Assembly: GCF_027604915.1 (NCBI RefSeq)
Contig: NZ_JAJAQC010000026.1
Span: 1 to 64,000, forward strand
DNA from: Streptomonospora mangrovi
GTDB lineage: Bacteria; Actinomycetota; Actinomycetes; Streptosporangiales; Streptosporangiaceae
Direction: 5' to 3'
DNA: 64,000 nucleotides
Shown: positions 42,271 through 54,207 of the stretch, piece by piece
Layout: every line of letters begins with the position of its first letter
Numbering within the stretch: position 1 is the first letter of the stretch
The notes under the pieces: model-generated
The model's input: only the letters and a program-made list of their open reading frames with translations
Told to the model about the DNA's origin: nothing
Database searches by the model: none
Translations under genes and position numbers: made by a program

Positions 42271-42352
42271 GGCAGGTTGCCCGAGTGGCCAAAGGGAGCG
42301 GTCTGTAAAACCGCCGGCTCAGCCTACGCAGGTTCGAACCCTGCACCTGCCA
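42271..42352 (+). tRNA. tRNA-Tyr (anticodon GTA)
   Basis: The acceptor GGCAGGT pairs with ACCTGCC, the anticodon loop CTGTAAA carries GTA, a long variable arm is present as in class II tRNAs, and the T loop is GGTTCGAACC. The discriminator is A, and CCA is not encoded. This tRNA species is the chromosomal integration site of the Streptomyces element SLP1. Confidence 0.95.
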
Positions 42353-42877
42353 CCCACGGAGAACCTCCGTACGACCAGCACAGATGTGCGATCTGCGGGG
42401 GTTTTCGCTTTCCCCGCTGTGCAGCGGTAGGCACCTTTGAGCACCTCCACGACGGCGTCCGTCCAACATGCGTCCAACGGATTGGGCGGCGTATGCCCAG
42501 GTCGCCCTAGTACCCGAAGTACTGGGCACGCTGGGCCGGGTGCGGACGCGAGAGACCATGCAGTCCCGCCTCCTGCCGGTGGCGCCGGTATGAGTGTCAG
42601 GAGATGCCTGCGGCGGGTGTGCGGCGAGGTTCCGCCCGGCTCGATCCTCACAGTCCCGGCGTATCCGCAGTAGCAGTTGGCGTATGGACTCTCCGGTGAT
42701 CGCCGCCTCTTCGGGCCGGGCGTCCGCAGTTCGCGGAGTCGACCGCCGAGTCCGTGAAGACGTTCGTCGCCCATGCTCGACGGTTCTACCGGACTGCCCG
42801 GTGCCACTGCCCGGTGCCTATGGGCGGGAGCGATTGGTTTTCCCCCTTTGGTGGGGCGAGTTTGGGGATATCGCTGT

Positions 42878-42901: not shown

Positions 42902-43365
42902 TCGGGGTGGTTGCGCGGCGGCGTTTGGCCGTGGTGTGGGGTGGGGTCGGCTGGGATTTCTCCTCCGGTTGGAGCCCGCCGGTGTGCCCCTGGTGGGGGC
43001 GAGCATCCTGGGGTGGGTTTTCCCCTTCTTTTTCTTCTTCTGTGGCGCGCTCGGCGTGATGGCGGGTGCGGGTTTCGTCATGGCCGGAACGGGTGAGCGG
43101 CCGTCTGGGTGCGCGTGCGGGGTTTCCGCCGGTGCCCCCTCTTCCTGTGGGCCGGTGGGGCCGCGCGGCGCGTGTCGGGGGATGGCGGCGGGGCTATGCC
43201 CGGAATGCCAAGGGCAAAGCTGTCGCCAGCGGAGATAGCGGTGCGCAACGGACATGCAAAGCGATTGGGAAGAACGGGGAAATTAAATTTCCGCGTTTTC
43301 TGTCATTTTCGAGTCAATTGCTCACTGTGGACTAAACGGACATATTGCTTTCGCGGTTTTTGGCG

Positions 43366-43395
43366 TTGACAAAATCCTTTTGCGGGGTCGATGAT
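43366..43395 (+). promoter_or_regulatory. Promoter candidate for the chaplin-like cluster
   Basis: TTGACA (43366-43371) is a consensus -35 and GATGAT (43390-43395) an acceptable -10 at 18 nt. The start codon of the first gene is 77 nt further on. The region is AT-rich compared with the genome. Confidence 0.5.
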
Positions 43396-43471
43396 TGCTC
43401 CAGTCCACCACGACATCGGGCGCCTTGCCGCGCCTTCTCCAATCAACCTCGTTTGAATTACCGGGGGAATC

Positions 43472-43717
43472 GTGCTGAAGAAGTTTGCCGCCGCGGGTCT
43501 GATCGCCGGTGCCGCGATGGGCGCTGTGCTTATGGCCGGCCCTGCCCAGGCCGCCACCGGTTCGGGTGACCAGCAGTTCAACCAGAACCTCCAGTTGGTG
43601 CCGATCCAGCTGTGCAACACCAACATCGCCGTGCTGGGTGCGAACGTGCCGGTCCTGTCGCCGCAGACCACCGGCGACTGCATCAACGGCCCCGTCGGCG
43701 CCAACGCCGCCAAGTAG
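43472..43717 (+). CDS. Chaplin/rodlin-like small secreted protein 1
   Basis: An 81-aa precursor with a signal peptide of 27 residues (ending GPAQA). The mature part of about 54 residues contains DQQFNQNLQLVPIQLCNTNI followed by NVPVLSPQTTGDC. The two cysteines are 22 residues apart. Alternating hydrophobic strands and the Cys pair recall chaplins, and the LSPQ segment recalls the C-terminal part of rodlins, but neither hallmark core is present. The GTG start follows a GGGGG. It is the first of four tandem paralogues; a role in surface or aerial-growth layers is inferred. Confidence 0.65.
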   Translation: MLKKFAAAGLIAGAAMGAVLMAGPAQAATGSGDQQFNQNLQLVPIQLCNTNIAVLGANVPVLSPQTTGDCINGPVGANAAK

Positions 43718-43817
43718 CTCCGGTCCGCGACGCCGTGACAATCGCGCCCGCGCGGCGCGCCCGCACGGCAAGCGGTCCATCGACCTCACTGACTTTTCCA
43801 GCAGAAAGGAATTCTCG

Positions 43818-44075
43818 ATGCTGCGCAAGCTCGGAATCAGCACCCTGATCGCCGGTGCGGCCCTGGGCGCCGTTGTGGCCGCCTCGCCCGCCTCCGCCGC
43901 CACCAACTCGGGTGACCAGCAGTACAACCAGAACCTGCAGGGCATTCCCGTCCAGGTCTGCAACGCCAACATCGGCGCCGTCATCGGCGTCAACGTGCCG
44001 ATCCTGTCGCCGCAGACCACGGGCGACTGCACCAACGGCTCGGTCGGCGCCAACGTCGAGTCCGGCAAGAAGTAA
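43818..44075 (+). CDS. Chaplin/rodlin-like small secreted protein 2
   Basis: An 85-aa precursor. Its N-terminus MLRKLGISTLIAGAALGAV is nearly identical to that of the next gene, showing recent duplication. The signal peptide ends SPASA. The mature core has NQNLQGIPVQVCNANI and NVPILSPQTTGDC; the cysteines are 23 apart because of one extra residue. AAAGGA lies about 8 nt upstream of the ATG. The gap to gene 1 is 100 nt and to gene 3 is 17 nt. Confidence 0.65.
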   Translation: MLRKLGISTLIAGAALGAVVAASPASAATNSGDQQYNQNLQGIPVQVCNANIGAVIGVNVPILSPQTTGDCTNGSVGANVESGKK

Positions 44076-44092
44076 GAGGAGAGGGAGCACAC

Positions 44093-44338
44093 ATGCTGCG
44101 CAAGCTCGGAATCAGCACCCTGATCGCCGGTGCGGCCCTGGGTGCCGTCCTCGCCGCCTCGCCCGCGTCCGCGGCGACCGGCTCCGGTGACCAGCAGTAC
44201 AACCAGAACCTCCAGCTCGTCCCGATCCAGGCGTGCAACGCCAACATCGCCGTGCTGGGTCTGAACGTGCCGGTCCTGTCGCCGCAGACCACCGGCGACT
44301 GCACCAACGGCTCCGTCGGCACCAACGTCGGGCGCTAG
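44093..44338 (+). CDS. Chaplin/rodlin-like small secreted protein 3
   Basis: An 81-aa precursor, nearly identical to gene 2 in the signal peptide and to gene 1 in the mature core (NLQLVPIQACNANIAVLG, NVPVLSPQTTGDC). GAGGGAG precedes the ATG. The mix of identities suggests duplication with gene conversion. The protein is expected to be exported, and the single Cys pair probably forms a disulfide. Confidence 0.65.
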   Translation: MLRKLGISTLIAGAALGAVLAASPASAATGSGDQQYNQNLQLVPIQACNANIAVLGLNVPVLSPQTTGDCTNGSVGTNVGR

Positions 44339-44346
44339 GGGTCTCG

Positions 44347-44637
44347 ATGCCGCGCAAGGTGACCGTCGCCGGTCTGCTCGCCGGTGCCGCCATGGGCCTC
44401 CTGCTCCTGGCCGGTCCGGCGCAGGCCGAGGACCACGACGCCGATCAGCAGTTCAACCAGAACCTTCAGGTGCTGCCGATCGAGTTGTGCAACGTGAACG
44501 CCGCCGTTCTCGGCGCCAACGTTCCGGTGCTGTCCCCGCAGACCACGGGGGACTGCGTCAACGGGCCGTCCCTGACCAACCTCAGCTCGCAGGACGCGTA
44601 CAACGCGATCCCCGAGCCCCGGGGGGACGGCCGCTGA
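44347..44637 (+). CDS. Chaplin/rodlin-like small secreted protein 4
   Basis: A 96-aa precursor, the most divergent copy. The signal peptide ends GPAQA. The core is DQQFNQNLQVLPIELCNVNA plus NVPVLSPQTTGDC. It has a 20-residue hydrophilic C-terminal extension lacking in the others. It starts 8 nt after gene 3 with GGGG nearby, so genes 3 and 4 are coupled. A strong hairpin follows. Confidence 0.65.
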   Translation: MPRKVTVAGLLAGAAMGLLLLAGPAQAEDHDADQQFNQNLQVLPIELCNVNAAVLGANVPVLSPQTTGDCVNGPSLTNLSSQDAYNAIPEPRGDGR

Positions 44638-44978: not shown

Positions 44979-45746
44979 GTGGGTGACTCAGCGGATCGGG
45001 TGAGGACGGTGGGCGCCGGTGGCAGTGCCGCCGACGCCTGGGAGCGGCTGCGCGCGACGGCCGGCACGCCGGCCGACGGCCCCGTGCCCCGGCACGGCCG
45101 CGCGGCCCTGCTGCGCCTGGCCGCGTGGTTCGAGGGCGCCGACGCCGACACCGCGCACCGCATCTACACCGCCGCCTTCGCCGCGCACGGCGCCACGCAC
45201 CTGGGCGGCGCGGGCGAGGAGTCCGTGGCCGCCACCACGAGCTGGTGGCAGGCGCCCCTGGCCGACATCGCCGCCGCCCGGCTGACCAGCGCGCTGCCCG
45301 CCGACCCCGTGCGCGACCACACCGAGCAGCGCGCCCGGCTGCGCGACGCCGCCGAGTCCTCCGCGCACTGGCGCCGCTCGGCCGCCCAGGAGGTCCACCG
45401 CGTGCTGGCCGAGGCCACCGGCCGCGACTCCCGCATCCGCCTGTCCAGCGCGGCCATGGGCGTGCTGATGGAGCTGCTGACCGCCGCGCTGGGCTCGGGC
45501 GACGCCACGCGCGGCCCGGTCTCGGCCGGCGACCTCGAACTTGGCATCCGGCTGCACGTGCGCCACGACCCCGACTCCGCCCTCACCCTGCGCGGGTCCG
45601 GCGGCGACCTCGCGCTCGACGGCCTGCGGCTGGTCGTCACCCCCTTCGCCGCCGCCGACGACCCCTTCGACCCCGAGGCGGACGACCCCCACCGCCGCCC
45701 CACGCCCGCGGCGGGAACCGGCCTGCCGCTGGCCCGCCAGGCATGA
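44979..45746 (+). CDS. DUF2397-family (TIGR02677, JetA/kleisin-like) protein, N-terminally truncated
   Basis: The product has 255 aa; full-length members of this family have nearly 500 aa (from memory). What remains is the C-terminal half: LLRLAAWFEGADADTAHRIY, the PLADIAAARL linker, RRSAAQEVHRVL and a final beta-rich segment ending VVTPF. In Wadjet/Ept systems this subunit is the MukF-like kleisin bridging the SMC heads, and its N-terminal winged-helix half normally dimerises. That half is missing here, and no remnant is found upstream. It is followed by the DUF2398 gene after 81 nt. It may be a degraded or a minimal variant. Confidence 0.7.
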   Translation: MGDSADRVRTVGAGGSAADAWERLRATAGTPADGPVPRHGRAALLRLAAWFEGADADTAHRIYTAAFAAHGATHLGGAGEESVAATTSWWQAPLADIAAARLTSALPADPVRDHTEQRARLRDAAESSAHWRRSAAQEVHRVLAEATGRDSRIRLSSAAMGVLMELLTAALGSGDATRGPVSAGDLELGIRLHVRHDPDSALTLRGSGGDLALDGLRLVVTPFAAADDPFDPEADDPHRRPTPAAGTGLPLARQA

Positions 45747-45827
45747 CAGCGCACCGGCGGCCCCGCACCGCCGGAACCGCCCGCGACCGCCCAGGCGACC
45801 CAGCGACGTAAGGAGGTGGCGACCACC

Positions 45828-47096
45828 GTGACGGCAACGGACGACATCGCCCTGATCGGCGAGCGCCAGGCCGCCGCCCGGCGGCTGCTCGCCGACCCCA
45901 TAGTCACCGCCCGCACCCACCCCGACGACTTCGCGGTCATCCGCTCCCACTCCGACTGGCTCATCCAGCGCTTCCGCCGCGTCCTGGGCTATGAGCTGAA
46001 GGTTGCCGCCGACCACGCGCGGCTGGTCAAGACCGGGCTGGTGAGCGGCACCACCCGTCCGCTGACCCGCCCCAGCGGCGCCTACTTCTCCCCGCGCACC
46101 TACAGCTACCTCGCGCTGAGCCTGGCCGTGCTGGTCGAGGCGCCCGCCCGCCTCACCGCCGCCGGCCTGGCCGCCGACGTCAGCGCCGCCGCCGCCGAGG
46201 CCGGCCTCGACCTCGACCCGCGCCGCCGCATGGGCGAGCGCCGCGCCTTCGCCGCCGCGCTGCGCCGCCTCGCCGACTGGGGCGCCCTCAGCGAGGAGCA
46301 GGGCCGGCTGCCCGCCTACGCCGCCGACTCCTCCCACGAGGTCCACCTGGCCGTGCACCACGACGTCGTGCGCCGCGTGGTGGCCCACCCGCCGCACGCC
46401 ACCGACGACCCCGCCGCGTTCGTCGCCGACATGGACGCCACCGACCCCGCCGGCGAGGACGCCGGAGAGGTGGCCCTGCGCCGCGCGCTCGCCGAGACCG
46501 CCGTGGTCTACCGCGCCGACCTCTCCGAGCGCCAGCGCCGCCGCCTGGCCGCCCACCAGTGGCGGGCCGTCGCCGAACTCGGCGACCTGCTGGGCTGCGA
46601 CGCCGAGATCCGCGCCGAGGGCGTGGCCCTGATCATGCCGGGCGACACCGGCGCCGACGCCGTCGCGGCCTTCCCCAGCGCCGGGCCGGTGGGCCAGGCC
46701 GCGCTGCTGCTCGTGGAGCGCCTGGTGGCCCGGTTGCGGCCCGCCGCCCCCCAGACCCGGGTCGAGGTACCCGCCGACGTGCTGGAGGAGGAGTTGGCGC
46801 GCGTCACCGCCGCCCAGACCGCCGGCGGGGGCGAGCGCACCGCGCTGCGCCACGAGCCCGACCCCGCCACCCTGGCCGCCCGCGTGCTGCGGCTGCTGTG
46901 CGACACCCGGCTCATGCACCACCCCCGCCCCGACGCCGGCGACCGCTCGGGGTGGTGGCTGCTGGCCGCCGCCGCGCGCTACGGCGGCCGCCCCTCCGCC
47001 GCCCCCGCCCCCGACGGCCCCCCGGGCGCGTCCGCCGACGACACCGGGCGCCACCGCCGCCCCGCGCCGCAGGCCGCCCCCGGAAGCGCCCTGTGA
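45828..47096 (+). CDS. DUF2398-family (TIGR02678, JetB-like) protein
   Basis: This 422-aa protein corresponds to the MukE-like subunit of Wadjet-type SMC complexes. Family features include the early RRLLADPIVTARTHPDDFAV, FRRVLGYELKVAADHARLVK and TRPSGAYFSPRTYSYLALSL, and the C-terminal DTRLMHHPRP. It looks full length. The GTG at 45828 is preferred because AAGGAGG ends 11 nt upstream; an in-frame GTG at 45816 overlaps that site. A 157-nt gap holding a short CG palindrome (47106-47121) separates it from the SMC gene. Confidence 0.82.
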   Translation: MTATDDIALIGERQAAARRLLADPIVTARTHPDDFAVIRSHSDWLIQRFRRVLGYELKVAADHARLVKTGLVSGTTRPLTRPSGAYFSPRTYSYLALSLAVLVEAPARLTAAGLAADVSAAAAEAGLDLDPRRRMGERRAFAAALRRLADWGALSEEQGRLPAYAADSSHEVHLAVHHDVVRRVVAHPPHATDDPAAFVADMDATDPAGEDAGEVALRRALAETAVVYRADLSERQRRRLAAHQWRAVAELGDLLGCDAEIRAEGVALIMPGDTGADAVAAFPSAGPVGQAALLLVERLVARLRPAAPQTRVEVPADVLEEELARVTAAQTAGGGERTALRHEPDPATLAARVLRLLCDTRLMHHPRPDAGDRSGWWLLAAAARYGGRPSAAPAPDGPPGASADDTGRHRRPAPQAAPGSAL

Positions 47097-47253
47097 CCCC
47101 GCACACCCCCGCGCGCGGGGGAGCCCACGAGGACCACTCGCGGCATCCGGAACAATGGCAGGGTCCGCGCGGTCCCCAGCCGCGCCGGGTCTTCGCGGCC
47201 CCGGACCGCCCCGGTGGCGCGACCCCACACGGCACAGAGCGAAAGGACGGGCG

Positions 47254-50200
47254 ATGACCGCCGCCAACGCGAACGGGCGAGCCGAACCGCCGCCCCTGGG
47301 CGGCGACGGCGACCCGCTGGGCGCCCCCGGCGCCCCGGCGGCCGAGGCCGACGCGGCGGCGCGCGCCGAGGCCCGGCGCCGCGCCTCCATCGCCGACGCC
47401 CTGCGTCCCGGCGACCTGCTCGGCGCCCAGCAGCCGCCCACCGCCGCACCGGCCGAGCCCGACCCCCGGCCCGAGCCGCCGGCCGAGGACCTGACCGACA
47501 CCGAGCGCCGCCGCCCCGGCCGCTACCGCCTCAACCGCGCCGGCATCCAGAACGTCTGGCACTACGACGACCACGTCTTCGACTTCGCCCAGGGCCGGCT
47601 GCTGCTGCGCGGCCGCAACGGCGCCGGCAAGTCCAAGGCGCTGGAGATGCTGCTGCCGTTCCTGCTCGACGGCGACGCCCGCCGCCTCGACACCACCGGC
47701 AGCAGCCGCACCAGCCTGCGCTGGCTGCTGCTGGAGGGCCGCGAGCCCGCCCGCGCGGCCGAGGACCCCGACGGCACCGAGGGCGAGGGCGCCCCCGCCG
47801 CCTCCACCCTGGGCTATCTGTGGGTGGAGTTCACCCGGGGCGCCGCCGCCGATGACCCCGACACCCCCGAGGCCGCCCAGCCCGCCCGCGTCACCCTGGG
47901 CGCGGCCGTCACCGCCTCGCCCGGCGCCGACGCCCGCAGCGTGTTCTTCGTCACCGAGCGCGAACTCGGCGCCGACCTGAAGCTGATCGCCGACGGCCGC
48001 CCCATGCCCATCGACCGGCTGCGCACCGAGGTCGGCCCCGACAACTGCTACGACAGCCCGGTGCCCTACCGCGCCCGGGTGATGCGCGAGTTGTTCGGCA
48101 TCGACGACCCCGTGCGCTACCGCAACCTCATCCACCTGCTCTACCGGCTGCGCCGCCCCACCATCGGCGAGCGCCTGGAGGCCGGCGAGCTGGTGTCGGT
48201 GCTGGCCGAGGCGTTGCCGCCCATGGACCAGGGAGTCCTGGACGAGATGGCGCGCAACATCACCGACCTCGAACAGGCCCGCGCCCGCCTGGAGGCGCTG
48301 CGCACCGCGCGCGAGCAGGTCGCCGGGTTCCTCACCGACTACCGGGGCTACCTGCACCGCACGCTGCGCACCCAGACCCGCGCCGCCCGCGAGCAGGTCC
48401 GCGCCCACGCCCGCCGCGACGCCGAGGTCGACCGCCTCACCGACGAACTCGAACGCCTGGTCACCGCCGAGAGCGCCGTGCAGGAGGAGCGCGACCGGCT
48501 GCGCCGCACCCGCGACACCGCCGCCTCCGACGCCGCCACCCTCACCGCCGCCGGGGGCACCGCCGCCGGGTCCACCGACTTCGAGCAGCAGGCCCGCGAC
48601 GCCGCCGTCTCCGCCTACATCCGCGCCGCCGAGGCCGCCTCGGCCGCCGCCGCCTACGCCATCACCAACGAGGAGCACGCCAAGCGGCGCATGGCCGCCG
48701 ACACCGCCGCCATCGACCGCGCGCTGGAGGGGCTGCGCGCCCTGCACGCCCAGGCGGCCGAGACCGCGCGCGCCGCCGGGGCCGACCCCGCCGGCCTGGG
48801 CCAGGTGCCCCACCCGGTGGCCACCACCCTGGCCCCCCGCGAGAGCGTCACCCGGGTCAACCTGGAGGGGCTGGAGCAGGCGGTCGAGCGCGAGCCCGTG
48901 CCCGGCCTGGACGTCGGCGACCTGCGCGACCGCCTGGCCGAGCTGCACGACCGCTACGCCGCCGCCGACACCGCCGCCGCCGAGCGCGCCGCCGTGGTGG
49001 CCGACCTCATCGTGCGCGCCGCCGAGCGCGCCGCCGCCGACGAGCGCGAGGCGGCGCTGGCGAGCGAGGCCGAGGCCGCCGAGGCCGCCCTGGAGCGCGC
49101 CCGCGAGCGCGAGCAGGCCGCCATCGACGCCGTTCGCGCCGCCAGCGCCGGCTACGCCGGCCGGGTGCGCGAGTGGAGCACCGCGCTGCGCGCCACCGCC
49201 GCCGACACCGACCTGGGCGCCTCGCTGGCCGAGCTGGAGTCGCTGGTCGAACTGCCCCTGGAGGACACCCTGCGGGTGCTCGACGCCGACGTGGGCGAGC
49301 GGGTGGCCCGCCACGCCCACGGCATCGTCGACCCGCTGCTGCGCGAGCTGCGCACCCGCCGCGACACCGCCGTGGGCGAGGAGCGGGAGCTGTCGGCCGA
49401 GCTGGACGAGCTGTCGGAGCGCCGCGACGCCGCCTCGGGCGAGGCCGCCCCCGAGCGTCCCGCGTGGGCCACCGCCGCGCGCGACGACTCCGCCGGGGCC
49501 CCCTTCCACCTGGCCGTGGACTTCGCCTCGGGCCTGCACGCCGCCGAGCGCGCCAACCTGGAGGCCGCGCTGGAGGCGTCCGGCCTGCTGGCCGCCTGGA
49601 TCTCCGCTGACGGCGCCCTCACCGACCCCGCCACCCGCGACGTGGTGCTGGTGCCCGGCCGCCCGGTCAAGGGCCGCAGCCTGCGCGAGGCGCTGGTGCC
49701 GGCCGAGCCGCTGCCGCCGGGCACCACCGCCGGCGCGGTCTCGGCCCTGCTCGACTCCATCGGCCTGCTGCCCGCGCCGGGCGAGGAGGAGCCCGAGCCC
49801 CGCCACCGCCGCGACAGCCCGCCCCCCGTGGCCACCGCCGTCGCCCTCGACGGCCGCTGGCGCCTGGGCGCGGCCGCCGGCTCCCACACCAAGACCGCCG
49901 CCGAGTACATCGGCAAGGAGGCCCGCGCCGAGGCGGGCGACCGCCAGCGCGCCAACGCCGAGCGCCGGATCGCCATCGCCGAGGCGCTGCTGGCCGAGGC
50001 CGGCGAGCGGCGCGGCGACATCGAGCGCCTGCACGCCGCCCTCGTGGAGACCGACCGCGCCCTGCCCGACTCCGCCGACCTCCAGGCGGCCTGGGCCGGG
50101 CTCGACAACGCCCGCACCTGGCTGGCCCAGACCCAGCGCGCCTACAACGCCGCCCGCGAGGACCTCGCCGAGGCCCGCGCCACAGCGCTGGAGCTGCGCG

Positions 50201-51909
50201 CCCGCCTGGCCGCGCCGGCCGCCGACCTCGACCTGCCCACCGGCGTCGAGGACCTGCGCGCCACCCGCGCCGCGCTGGAGCGGCTGCGCGCCCAACTCGC
50301 CGACGGCCACCGCGACCTGGCGGCCCTGGCGGTGCTGCTGGAGGACTACCAGGCCGACATCGCCGCCTGGGAGGAGGCCCGCTCGGGCCGCGTGATCGCC
50401 GAGGACGCCCGCACCGGCGCCATCAGCGACATGATCACCGTGCGGCGCGAGATCGAGCTGACCGACCGCGCCCGCGCCGCCGCGCCCGAGCAGATCGCCG
50501 CCGCCGTCGACCAGGTCCGCGAGCGCATGGACGAGGCCGCCGCGCGGCTGCCCGAGGTGGAGCGCGAGGCCCAGCGCGCCCGCGACGAGCGCGTGGCCGC
50601 CGAGACACGGCTGGAGACCGCCGTGCTGGAGCGCGCCGAGCAGGCGCGCCGGGCGCTGGCGGCCGGCGACGTGCTGCGCGCCATGATCACCCGGCCCGAC
50701 GGCGTCCCCGACACCGCGCTGCTGGCGGCGGCCGGGCTGGAGTCCGCCGCGCCGCTGGCCGCCGAGACCGCGCCGGCTGCGCCCGCCGACACCGCGTCGG
50801 CGGCCCCCGCCGATCCGGCCGGCGACGCCGCGCCGCCCGAGGAGCCCGCCGCCGACCACGACGCCCTGGCCCGCCGCGTCGCCGCGCTCGACGCCCTGCT
50901 GACCGCCCTGGAGAAGGAGTTGGGCGAGCCCGCCGAGGGCGAGCTGGACGACAGCGGCATCCTGCGCCGCCGCGAGGAGCTGCACCGCCACCTGGCCGGC
51001 AGCGACGCCGTGGGCGCCCGCACCGAGCTGACCGAGCCCGCCGGCGTCAAGCGGCTCACCGTCCACGGCGACGACGGCAGCCACGACATCACCGCCTACG
51101 CCGACCGCCTCGACAAGGCCGTGGCCACCGCCGAGGAGGCCGCCCTGCTGCGCGAGGAGGACGCCTTCGAGCGCCACCTGCTCGGCGAGCTGGCCGGCCA
51201 CCTCTCCCGCCAGATCGACGAGGCGCGCGCGCTGATCTCGACCATGAACGACGTGCTGGGCGACGTCACCACCTCCCAGGGCCTGGGCGTGCGCCTGGAC
51301 TGGCAGTTGGCCCCCGACGCCGACGAGGACGTCCGGGCGGTGGTGCCGCTGCTGGCCAGACCCGCCGAGCAGCGCACCCGGGTCGAGACCACCCGGCTGC
51401 GCGACGCCCTGCGCCGCTGCATCGAGGCCATCCGCCGCCTCGACCCCACCGCCACCGGCGGCGCCCAGTTGCGCGCCGCCCTGGACTACCGCTCCTGGTT
51501 CGCGTTCACCGTCTACGTCACCGACGCCGCCCACCCCGACCGCGAGCGTCGCCTCACCCACCGCACCGCCCTCAGCCAGGGCGAGCAGCGCGTGGTGGCC
51601 TACCTGGTGCTGTTCGCCGCGGCGGCGGCCCAGTTCGGCTCCCTGGCCGCCCACGCGCCCGCCGCGCCCCGCCTGATCCTGCTGGACGACGCGTTCGCCA
51701 AGGTGGACGAGCCCACCCACGGCCGCCTGCTCGGCCTGCTGGTCGAGCTGGACCTGGACTTCGTGCTCACCTCCGAGCGCGTCTGGGGGTGCTTCCCGAG
51801 TGTGCCGAGCCTGGACATCTACGAGTGCCTGCGCGACCCCGCCGTGCCCGGGATCGCGACCCTGCACTTCACCTGGGACGGCAGCCGCCGCAAGCTCGTG
51901 GGGGTGTGA
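47254..51909 (+). CDS. SMC-like ATPase of Wadjet/Ept type (TIGR02680, JetC-like)
   Basis: A 1551-aa MukB/SMC-like ATPase. The Walker A motif GRNGAGKSKALEMLLPF starts at about residue 120, after a disordered N-terminal 80 residues. Long Ala/Glu/Arg-rich coiled coils fill most of 370-1300, with a globular hinge-like part around 750-900. The signature LSQGEQRVVAYLV is at about 1440 and Walker B LILLDDAFAKVDE at about 1474. AAAGGA precedes the ATG by 6 nt. In related systems (Wadjet; EptABCD in Mycobacterium smegmatis) this motor extrudes plasmid DNA and needs a separate nuclease. All ATPase motifs are intact. Confidence 0.85.
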   Translation: MTAANANGRAEPPPLGGDGDPLGAPGAPAAEADAAARAEARRRASIADALRPGDLLGAQQPPTAAPAEPDPRPEPPAEDLTDTERRRPGRYRLNRAGIQNVWHYDDHVFDFAQGRLLLRGRNGAGKSKALEMLLPFLLDGDARRLDTTGSSRTSLRWLLLEGREPARAAEDPDGTEGEGAPAASTLGYLWVEFTRGAAADDPDTPEAAQPARVTLGAAVTASPGADARSVFFVTERELGADLKLIADGRPMPIDRLRTEVGPDNCYDSPVPYRARVMRELFGIDDPVRYRNLIHLLYRLRRPTIGERLEAGELVSVLAEALPPMDQGVLDEMARNITDLEQARARLEALRTAREQVAGFLTDYRGYLHRTLRTQTRAAREQVRAHARRDAEVDRLTDELERLVTAESAVQEERDRLRRTRDTAASDAATLTAAGGTAAGSTDFEQQARDAAVSAYIRAAEAASAAAAYAITNEEHAKRRMAADTAAIDRALEGLRALHAQAAETARAAGADPAGLGQVPHPVATTLAPRESVTRVNLEGLEQAVEREPVPGLDVGDLRDRLAELHDRYAAADTAAAERAAVVADLIVRAAERAAADEREAALASEAEAAEAALERAREREQAAIDAVRAASAGYAGRVREWSTALRATAADTDLGASLAELESLVELPLEDTLRVLDADVGERVARHAHGIVDPLLRELRTRRDTAVGEERELSAELDELSERRDAASGEAAPERPAWATAARDDSAGAPFHLAVDFASGLHAAERANLEAALEASGLLAAWISADGALTDPATRDVVLVPGRPVKGRSLREALVPAEPLPPGTTAGAVSALLDSIGLLPAPGEEEPEPRHRRDSPPPVATAVALDGRWRLGAAAGSHTKTAAEYIGKEARAEAGDRQRANAERRIAIAEALLAEAGERRGDIERLHAALVETDRALPDSADLQAAWAGLDNARTWLAQTQRAYNAAREDLAEARATALELRARLAAPAADLDLPTGVEDLRATRAALERLRAQLADGHRDLAALAVLLEDYQADIAAWEEARSGRVIAEDARTGAISDMITVRREIELTDRARAAAPEQIAAAVDQVRERMDEAAARLPEVEREAQRARDERVAAETRLETAVLERAEQARRALAAGDVLRAMITRPDGVPDTALLAAAGLESAAPLAAETAPAAPADTASAAPADPAGDAAPPEEPAADHDALARRVAALDALLTALEKELGEPAEGELDDSGILRRREELHRHLAGSDAVGARTELTEPAGVKRLTVHGDDGSHDITAYADRLDKAVATAEEAALLREEDAFERHLLGELAGHLSRQIDEARALISTMNDVLGDVTTSQGLGVRLDWQLAPDADEDVRAVVPLLARPAEQRTRVETTRLRDALRRCIEAIRRLDPTATGGAQLRAALDYRSWFAFTVYVTDAAHPDRERRLTHRTALSQGEQRVVAYLVLFAAAAAQFGSLAAHAPAAPRLILLDDAFAKVDEPTHGRLLGLLVELDLDFVLTSERVWGCFPSVPSLDIYECLRDPAVPGIATLHFTWDGSRRKLVGV

Positions 51910-52002
51910 CCGGGGCCGCCCGCGCCGCCCGCCCCGACCTACTGCTTTCGCCCGACCTTGTCCTACTCTGACGTGCAAGGCCAACAATCGAGCGGGTGTG
52001 TG

Positions 52003-54207
52003 GTGACGACAGTGACGACAGGGCCTGCGACCTCCACCGGGGCTGCCCCGCGCCGGTACGACAGCAGTGCGGTGGCCGCACGCTCCCTCCTCGACCGCCT
52101 CGCCGACTCCGGCCTGGACCCCGCCGCCCGGCGCTGGGTGCTGGCCGCCCTGCACGGCGACGACGCCGTGGACGCCTGCGCCCGCGGCGAGGACATCCCC
52201 TGGCCGGTCCTGGACCAGGCCGAGGACCCCCGCCGGCTCCCGCCCCCCGGGCAGGCGCGCCGCGCGTTCCTGCGCCGCATCGAGGTCCAGGGCTTCCGCG
52301 GCATCGGCCGCCCCGCCGCCCTGGAGTTCGCCCCGGGCCCCGGCCTCACCGTGATCGTCGGCCGCAACGGTTCGGGCAAGTCCAGCTTCGCCGAGGCCGC
52401 CGAGGCCGCGCTGACCGGCCGCAACCTGCGCTGGGACGCCATGCCCGCCGGCTGGCGCGACGGCTGGCGCAACCTGCACTTCGACGAGCGCACCGAGATC
52501 ACCGTCGAACTCCAGCTCGCCGGCGAGCGCGGCCCCACCCGCGTCACCCGGGTCTGGGGCGGCGACAGCGTCCGCTCGGCCCGCGGCGAGGTGGTCGGCC
52601 CCGACGGCGCCGCCGTGCCGCTGCGCAGCATGGGCTGGGACCCCGAGCTGTCCCGCTACCGGCCGTTCCTGTCCTACGACGAACTCGGCCGCGCCGTCAC
52701 CGGGCGCGCCGCCGAGCTGTACGACACCCTCACCGCGCTGCTGGGCCTGACCGACCTCACCGAGGCCGAGCGCCGCCTGGCCCGCGCCTGCGACGGCTAC
52801 GCCAAGCGGCGCGACCGGCCCGGCCGCGAGCACGGCTACCTGCTGGAGCGGCTGCGCGCCTCCACCGACCGCCGCGCCGCGCTGGCCGCCCAGCTCCTCA
52901 CCGCGCCCGCCATCGACCTGGACCGGCTGGCCCAGATCGCCGCCGACGACGGCCCGGCCGACCCCGCACAGCACCTGGTGCTGCGCCGCCTGCGCCGGCT
53001 GTCGGTGCCCGAGCGCGCCCTGCTCACCGACGTCGTCAACGAGCTGCGCGGCGCCGCCATGGAGCTGGCCATGGCCGCCGGCACCAAGGGCGACCGCGCG
53101 CGCGGCGTGGCCGACCTGCTGCGCCGGGCGCTGGAGCACCACCGCCGCCACCCCGCCGAGACCGACTGCCCCACCTGCGGGGCCGGCGGCGCCCTGGGTG
53201 GCGACTGGGTGCGCCGCGCCGAGGCCGAGATCCGCCGCCTGGAGCCGGCGGCGGCGGGCGCGGCCGCCGCCTACGAGCGCGCCGACAGCGCCCGCGACCA
53301 GGCCCGATTCCTGATGGCCCCGATGCCGGCCTGGCTGCCGCCCGACTCCGAGCTGGGCCGGGTGTGGGCCGAGTGGGAGGCCGGCATGGAGATCACCGAC
53401 CTCACGCAGCTCGCCGAGCACATCGAGACCGTGGGGCGGCGGCTGCGCGCCACCGCCGTGGCCGCCCGCAAGGCCGCCGGGGAGCAGTTGGACGACCCCA
53501 CCGACGGCTGGTCCGACCTCGCCGACCAACTGGCGGCCTGGGTGGCGGACGCCCGCGCGGCCACGGCGGCGCGCGAGGCCCTGCGCCCGGCCGAGCAGGC
53601 GCTGGAGTGGTTCACCGGGATCGCCCGCGAGATCCGCGCCGAGCGGCTGCGCCCGCTGGCGGCCCAGGCCGAGCACGTGTGGCAGCGGCTGCGCCAGGAG
53701 CGCCGCATCGACCTGGAGGCGCTGCGCCTGGTGGGCCGGGGCGCCCGCCGCCGGGTGGCCGTGGACGTCGCCGTGGACGGCGTGGAGGGCGAGGGCACCT
53801 CGCCCGGCCTGCTCAGCCAGGGCGAGTTCCAGGCGCTGGCGCTGTCGATCTGCCTGCCGCGCACGCTGGTGCCCGACAACCCGTTCGGGTTCCTGCTGCT
53901 GGACGACCCGGTGCAGGCCATGGACACCGAGACGGTCGAGGGGCTGTCGGCGGTGCTGGCCGAGGTGGGGCGCCACCGCCAGCTCGTGGTGTTCACCCAC
54001 GACACCCGGCTGCCCGACGCCCTGCACCGGCTCGGGCTGCCCGCCGACATCCGGCGCATCCAGCGCGACGCCATGTCCAACGTGTGGGTGGCCGACACCG
54101 ACCGCACCGGCGGGGGCGCCGCCGGGTCGGGGGGACCGGCCGCGCCGCCGGGCGCGCCCGGCCCGTGGGGGGCGCCGCAGGCGGACCCGCTGCGGGGCGC
54201 CGGATGA
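52003..54207 (+). CDS. Rad50/SbcC-like ATPase with zinc hook, in the place of the expected nuclease gene
   Basis: About 734 aa. The Walker A motif is GRNGSGKSSFAEA (about residue 120), a CPTC zinc hook (about 389) sits between two short coiled coils, the signature is LLSQGEFQALALSICLP (about 604) and Walker B is FLLLDDPVQAMD (about 630). This is the layout of a compact SbcC/Rad50/RecF-type protein. The first 85 residues are helical and not part of the ATPase. No SbcD-like nuclease is adjacent. The start is uncertain: GTG 52003 is used, but GTG 51973 or TTG 51958 are possible. It follows the SMC gene by 93 nt on the same strand, where a DUF2399 nuclease would be expected. Confidence 0.7.
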   Translation: MTTVTTGPATSTGAAPRRYDSSAVAARSLLDRLADSGLDPAARRWVLAALHGDDAVDACARGEDIPWPVLDQAEDPRRLPPPGQARRAFLRRIEVQGFRGIGRPAALEFAPGPGLTVIVGRNGSGKSSFAEAAEAALTGRNLRWDAMPAGWRDGWRNLHFDERTEITVELQLAGERGPTRVTRVWGGDSVRSARGEVVGPDGAAVPLRSMGWDPELSRYRPFLSYDELGRAVTGRAAELYDTLTALLGLTDLTEAERRLARACDGYAKRRDRPGREHGYLLERLRASTDRRAALAAQLLTAPAIDLDRLAQIAADDGPADPAQHLVLRRLRRLSVPERALLTDVVNELRGAAMELAMAAGTKGDRARGVADLLRRALEHHRRHPAETDCPTCGAGGALGGDWVRRAEAEIRRLEPAAAGAAAAYERADSARDQARFLMAPMPAWLPPDSELGRVWAEWEAGMEITDLTQLAEHIETVGRRLRATAVAARKAAGEQLDDPTDGWSDLADQLAAWVADARAATAAREALRPAEQALEWFTGIAREIRAERLRPLAAQAEHVWQRLRQERRIDLEALRLVGRGARRRVAVDVAVDGVEGEGTSPGLLSQGEFQALALSICLPRTLVPDNPFGFLLLDDPVQAMDTETVEGLSAVLAEVGRHRQLVVFTHDTRLPDALHRLGLPADIRRIQRDAMSNVWVADTDRTGGGAAGSGGPAAPPGAPGPWGAPQADPLRGAG

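Follow-up and report, generated by a model that had tools for sequence, protein, structure and literature searches.

A four-copy family of small secreted-type proteins with a dedicated promoter-like element in Streptomonospora and Nocardiopsis

The gene row and its products

The window is the 64,000-nucleotide stretch of Streptomonospora mangrovi DNA (contig NZ_JAJAQC010000026.1) whose numbering is used throughout. Its plus strand carries exactly four tandem open reading frames between 43472 and 44637, with products of 81, 85, 81 and 96 amino acids and intergenic gaps of 100, 17 and 8 nt. The row and its surroundings comprise:

42271-42354: tRNA-Tyr
43338-43342, plus strand: GGACA motif that may be an activator site, 28 nt 5' of the -35-like hexamer
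43366-43396, plus strand: promoter-like element, by resemblance only; TTGACA (43366-43371), 19 nt, ATGATT (43391-43396)
43403-43471, plus strand: conserved leader, with GTCCACC at its start and GGGGGA (43463-43468), the likely ribosome-binding site, at its end, defined in a 41-leader alignment (A3)
43472-43717, plus strand: gene 1, GTG start; 81-residue two-Cys secreted-type protein
43818-44075, plus strand: gene 2; 85-residue two-Cys secreted-type protein
44093-44338, plus strand: gene 3; 81-residue two-Cys secreted-type protein
44347-44637, plus strand: gene 4; 96-residue two-Cys secreted-type protein with a polar C-terminal tail
44979-51909, plus strand: JetA/JetB/JetC type II-like (Wadjet-type) operon adjoining the cluster
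51958-54207: SMC/RecF-like ATPase, the next open reading frame after the Jet operon

The original prediction of four tandem small secreted-type proteins is borne out in its particulars. Each N-terminus runs, by eye, from a K/R-containing stretch through a hydrophobic stretch to an AxA-type site; all four products share NQNLQ and LSPQTTGDC, their cysteines lie at 48 and at 70 or 71 (spacings of 22, 23, 22 and 22), and 42 columns of their alignment are invariant. Genes 2 and 3, which are identical over their first 50 nt, are also the closest pair in the tree, and these two facts together suggest local duplication or gene conversion. The C-terminal tail beyond the last Cys distinguishes the fourth position: its median length in 31 four-copy sources is 23 residues there and 10 at positions 1-3. 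Over all pairs of 30 four-copy loci, gene 1 differs at codon positions 1, 2 and 3 in 3914, 2200 and 7636 instances, respectively. When the window is compared with another Streptomonospora locus (L017) the third codon position again leads, gene 3 (21/14/14) being the one exception among the four.

Relative loci longer than 9 kb keep the same neighbors: YajQ, JetA-like and JetB-like genes were matched in 34 of 36 and a JetC-like gene in 33 of 36, and the four-gene cluster looks like core genome. A mobile or phage origin was rejected, the synteny being conserved and gene 1 having no match among 72,556 plasmid records or 50,697 phage records and no confirmed match among viral contigs. The adjoining Jet operon (PADLOC scores of 123 bits for JetA2, over only the C-terminal part of the model, 304 for JetB2 and 1096 for JetC2) has matches beside the cluster in 33-34 of the 36 relatives, an unusual stability for a defense system.

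An undescribed family and its kin

Judged by their sequences, the four proteins appear to be members of an undescribed family. Neither Pfam nor NCBIfam yields a credible match: the best NCBIfam E is 0.036, and Pfam has two hits, both to gene 2 (E 0.046 and E 0.23). The original prediction held that these are a separate family and not ordinary chaplins or rodlins, and this stands: for none of the four is PF03777 (chaplin, DUF320) or NF041022 (rodlin) listed at E<=10, in lists from which the HMMER filters discard most matches above about 0.1. Against PDB sequences the matches are confined to the signal region, at E 8-9. Among the papers listed, none names such a family in its title or the opening of its abstract, and a text search for the peptide VLSPQTTGDC found nothing.

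Searching the genome_contigs collection with gene 1 retrieved 44 loci, which are titled Nocardiopsis, Streptomonospora, Marinitenerispora or Nocardiopsaceae with one exception, a Glycomyces fuscus record (L048) with proteins almost the same as in one Nocardiopsis locus (L042). The window and these loci furnished 165 family proteins, selected with a pattern in which two Cys are obligatory (L059 and L060 gave none). Exactly four copies are present in 31 of 43 sources, some of the others being cut by contig ends. The Cys spacing is 22-25 in 164 of the 165 members, the remaining one coming from an apparently frameshifted locus; both Cys are invariant in 33-row and 24-row alignments, although the 165 proteins behind the 33 rows were preselected for two Cys. 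In Nocardiopsis sp. JB363 (L029, 8562-8816) the third copy is apparently frameshifted. The 124 proteins from the 31 four-copy sources give a tree with few resolved forks, in which the four positions in the row cluster (19 label changes against a shuffled mean of 67.7).

The 33-row profile finds exactly the four cluster places in the window's whole genome, with a best E of 3.9e-40. At E<=1e-8 the family turns up in all 40 genomes searched from one genus, which named loci indicate is probably Nocardiopsis, and in 6 of 6 of the window's own, by the same token Streptomonospora. A search of 297 genomes of the order, with up to 18 first-look candidates scored per genome, matched 112 at E<=0.001; for 63 of these the E value was 1e-17 or lower. 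Among 394 genomes of the class 23 matched, 22 of them from the window's family group and one weakly, over the signal region only. A 24-row profile raises this count to 35, ten of them outside the family group with a best E of 4.4e-5; two of three inspected look unrelated, and the third (L235) is another type of two-Cys secreted protein. L235 and L232 represent another kind of two-Cys secreted protein, 79-84 residues long (AAVCLQEVAVVPVLG...NCSNG and GAGLCKEALALVPWALP...ACHNR), one host being of a Nocardiopsis-like genus and the other of the genus that holds most rodlins. The weaker matches in order and class are a mixture of true relatives with other loops and proteins that share little beyond a signal peptide.

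One set of more distant proteins, found with profile A2 of the family (L117-L123 and L125), has the form CRSxDVxVIGAxIHNIL...GDCxNGS and, we presume, resembles Actinomadura proteins. HHalign joins it to the family at 98% and E 7e-14, with a score of 67.5 against a shuffled maximum of 16.4; by this profile comparison the CRSxDV type is homologous to the family.

The promoter-like element and leader

Upstream of gene 1 the interval 43338-43471, element and leader together, is strongly conserved. Alignment of 42 upstream regions yields GGCGTTGACAAAA-N-ATGATTGC-N-GTCCACCGC, and the exact arrangement TTGACA, 17-19 nt, ATGATT, 6 nt, GTCC recurs in 41 of 43 sources, the other two being one with a single mismatch (L046) and one without upstream DNA (L047). 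Of 41 upstream regions, 35 have an exact GGACA between -26 and -28 and six have none. By its sequence TTGACA resembles a housekeeping -35 hexamer rather than developmental control, and the transcript may start near GTCCACC.

The element is single-copy in the window's genome. Among the 297 genomes of the order its pattern has a single hit in each of 57, and the backward control has none; these 57 all fall within the 63 strong family genomes, with 0 of the other 234. The strong family genomes that lack it are G008, G055, G061, G079, G233 and G244. Where the positions of element and family copy are both known (53 of 57; G107, G115, G131 and G189 have no listed copy for comparison) they always share contig and strand, and in 52 of the 53 the element precedes a copy by at most about 120 nt; in G109 it is about 600 nt from the only listed one. 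A dedicated promoter-like element tied to the family, and always single, is what is new here. Divergent kin retain it in part: L099, L100, L113, L115 and L134 have the element, L114 keeps TTGACA alone, L102 and L116 lack it, and nine upstream regions of CRSxDV-type genes contain no TTGACA.

GTCCACC could, by base complementarity, pair with the GGGGGA ribosome site, and the consensus fold of the leader does pair GTCCACCG with CGGGGGA. A structured leader RNA was nevertheless rejected: none of the 8 predicted pairs is changed on both sides, so that there is no covariation, and Rfam gives no match.

SigBldN is described, in passages of two papers (PMC4125116, PMC4255298), as controlling chaplins and rodlins in Streptomyces. 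Eight short-chaplin upstream regions from six relatives (a ninth chaplin, L250, was missed by the pattern and lies outside this set) hold no TTGACA, ATGATT or GTCCACC, with GGACA in 3 of 8. The complete element is also absent before three chaplins of the window's own genome; of its two short chaplins, one is preceded by ATGATT and GGACA and the other by GTCCACC. Co-regulation with chaplins was therefore rejected. The short-chaplin upstream regions of the relatives (L244-L249) have a conserved block of another kind, a GAACAC-N5-GTGTTC palindrome in 6 of 8.

Likeness to chaplins and rodlins, and a possible role

Genuine chaplins lie elsewhere in the window's genome, two of them with an LPLTG sortase-type motif; PF03777 has 16 matches there at E<=1, none within the cluster, and is found in 113 of 121 genomes of the order. 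That the four proteins lack the chaplin hallmark LLNPAFGN was correctly predicted (they have CN instead of CGN), as was a Cys spacing longer than the chaplin 18, a value that holds for the Streptomyces-type chaplins examined, against 14 in the relatives' short chaplins. The family might even so consist of highly divergent chaplins, homologues of the short chaplins under other control, with some 8 extra residues inserted between hairpin and second Cys. HHalign of the mature parts (a wide 45-row set against short chaplins) scores 24.7 at a probability of 53%, above the maximum of 17.4 from 200 column shuffles (100 free, 100 Cys-fixed); six further HHalign chaplin tests each exceed all of 60 shuffles, and both family Cys align with those of Streptomyces-type chaplins. 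Similar gene size, an MLKK start and a C-x-N-x-x-(I/V)-A-(V/I)-L-G-like stretch point the same way. Weaker wide-profile matches supplied 16 stretches, and 8 of these contain short chaplins, the signal peptide contributing to the matches. The HHalign values stay below accepted thresholds, however: their probabilities range over 13-53% with the sets used, and over 13-25% for the narrow set against three chaplin sets. With chaplin profiles hmmsearch is near its null, only 4-10% of the 165 members rising above the 99th percentile of Cys-fixed shuffles. The chaplin CGN and GNQ/GNV segment is also not kept, and the element differs. We consider descent as divergent chaplins unlikely.

The original prediction further noted that LSPQ followed by Cys recalls rodlins, and there is such a likeness, below threshold, at the VPVLS-PQ-C tail. 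On it hmmsearch with a rodlin profile aligns 48% of the 165 members above the 99th percentile of Cys-fixed shuffles (gene 2 scores 11.0 bits). True kinship with rodlins, for which this common VPVLS(S)PQ-x-C tail argues, is nevertheless very improbable. None of the four proteins is listed at E<=10 or reaches the NF041022 cut-off of 75 bits, where a control rodlin scores 235.8 bits. HHalign stays within the shuffled null: in each mode 5 of 60 shuffles reach the observed score, and against a rodlin core profile 2 and 5 of 80 do so with the wide set, 11 and 20 of 80 with the narrow set. The first Cys is out of register, and beyond VPVLS-PQ-C nothing follows the rodlin pattern of about 130 residues with SPQ..NKxC and NQQCxEN blocks. 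Proteins of that kind are confined, among 296 class genomes, to 20 of one genus and three weak matches elsewhere. The methods thus contradict each other, HHalign placing chaplins closer and hmmsearch rodlins. Below threshold, the first half of the proteins looks chaplin-like (a hairpin around the first Cys) and the second half rodlin-like (the tail); on both counts the family is assigned to neither.

Possible amyloid formation, which together with surface activity marks the chaplins, had also been proposed, with aggregation and structure predictions as checks, and these lend it no support. The aggregation hot fraction is 0.45 for the 165 members and 0.44 for shuffles (Streptomyces-type chaplins 0.73, relatives' short chaplins 0.55, rodlins 0.40). 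A passage of one study (PMC5314377) has AGGRESCAN, TANGO and FoldAmyloid missing the true amyloid region of RdlB, so the absence of an excess is a weak test. AlphaFold returns a mean pLDDT of 50.6 with residues 24-81, the mature part, nearly all under 50 and so disordered.

The disordered model, the TTGACA with its strongly conserved leader and the absence of the element from chaplins would all suit secreted or wall-bound proteins with no part in a sheath, such as inhibitors, binding or signaling proteins or antimicrobial peptides read from a sigma-70-like promoter. The named conserved neighbors (YajQ, JetABC-like) are not immunity, processing or export genes, though, and similar paralogues kept together everywhere would fit a structural role better; we think it improbable that the proteins act in such a way.

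The reading we prefer, tentatively and at somewhat less than even confidence, is a lineage-specific family of secreted, disulfide-pinned envelope or sheath proteins that work in a chaplin- or rodlin-like manner and are perhaps a divergent offshoot of the chaplins with a longer loop. The four genes would form one operon, read from its dedicated promoter; the products would be exported through a Sec-type signal peptide and cleaved, leaving some 54-69 residues. Once exported, each probably has its two Cys joined in a single disulfide, closing off a short beta-hairpin (VPxQxCNxNxxVxGxNVPVLSPQ), and the mature proteins would probably build up a structural sheath on the wall of hyphae or spores. A structural surface role is a best guess, by analogy, from the number of copies, the presence in every genome examined of two genera, apparent export, the conserved Cys pair and the faint likeness to chaplins and rodlins; such universal occurrence (40 of 40 in one genus, 6 of 6 in the other), with tandem repetition, suits structural proteins needed in bulk. 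Against it count the lack of PF03777 and NF041022 matches, the conflict of methods, the housekeeping-like TTGACA and the low pLDDT; the element's absence at the chaplin genes examined and aggregation no higher than in shuffles weigh also against a simple chaplin-like role.

Both genera are filamentous soil-type bacteria, and little is known of surface-layer construction in mycelial actinobacteria other than Streptomyces; a four-copy secreted family with its own promoter-like element and no Pfam or NCBIfam model is a candidate for a missing component. A passage in PMC4255298 puts chaplin-like genes in Thermobifida and Nocardiopsis and obvious rodlins only in streptomycetes. Rather speculatively, the family and the CRSxDV type might constitute a third actinobacterial class of sheath proteins, a disulfide-pinned hairpin superfamily that coats hyphae or spores in lineages without obvious rodlins, under its own promoter and leader, and that retains features possibly ancestral to the hairpin of chaplins and the tail of rodlins.

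Set beside known systems, the family shares with chaplins small size, apparent export, actinobacterial hosts, multiple copies and V-P-(I/V)-x-x-C-x-N followed by V-(L/I)-G and a second Cys; it differs in its Cys spacing (22-25 against 14 or 18), in the missing LLNPAFGN and PF03777 match, in having DQQxNQNLQ in place of the GN-x-x-x-x-P segment, and in its own promoter-like element. With RdlA and RdlB it shares (D/N)-(V/I)-P-(V/I)-L-S-PQ followed by Cys, several copies per genome and a similar aggregation score, but its members have 81-96 residues instead of about 130, with the first Cys out of register and neither an NF041022 match nor the NGNGA..GN N-terminal part. The CRSxDV type has the same signal-type start and the same Q-x-x-x-(V/I)-Q-x-C ... 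G-x-C-x-N-G framework, without LSPQTT or, in the upstream regions viewed, the -35-like hexamer.
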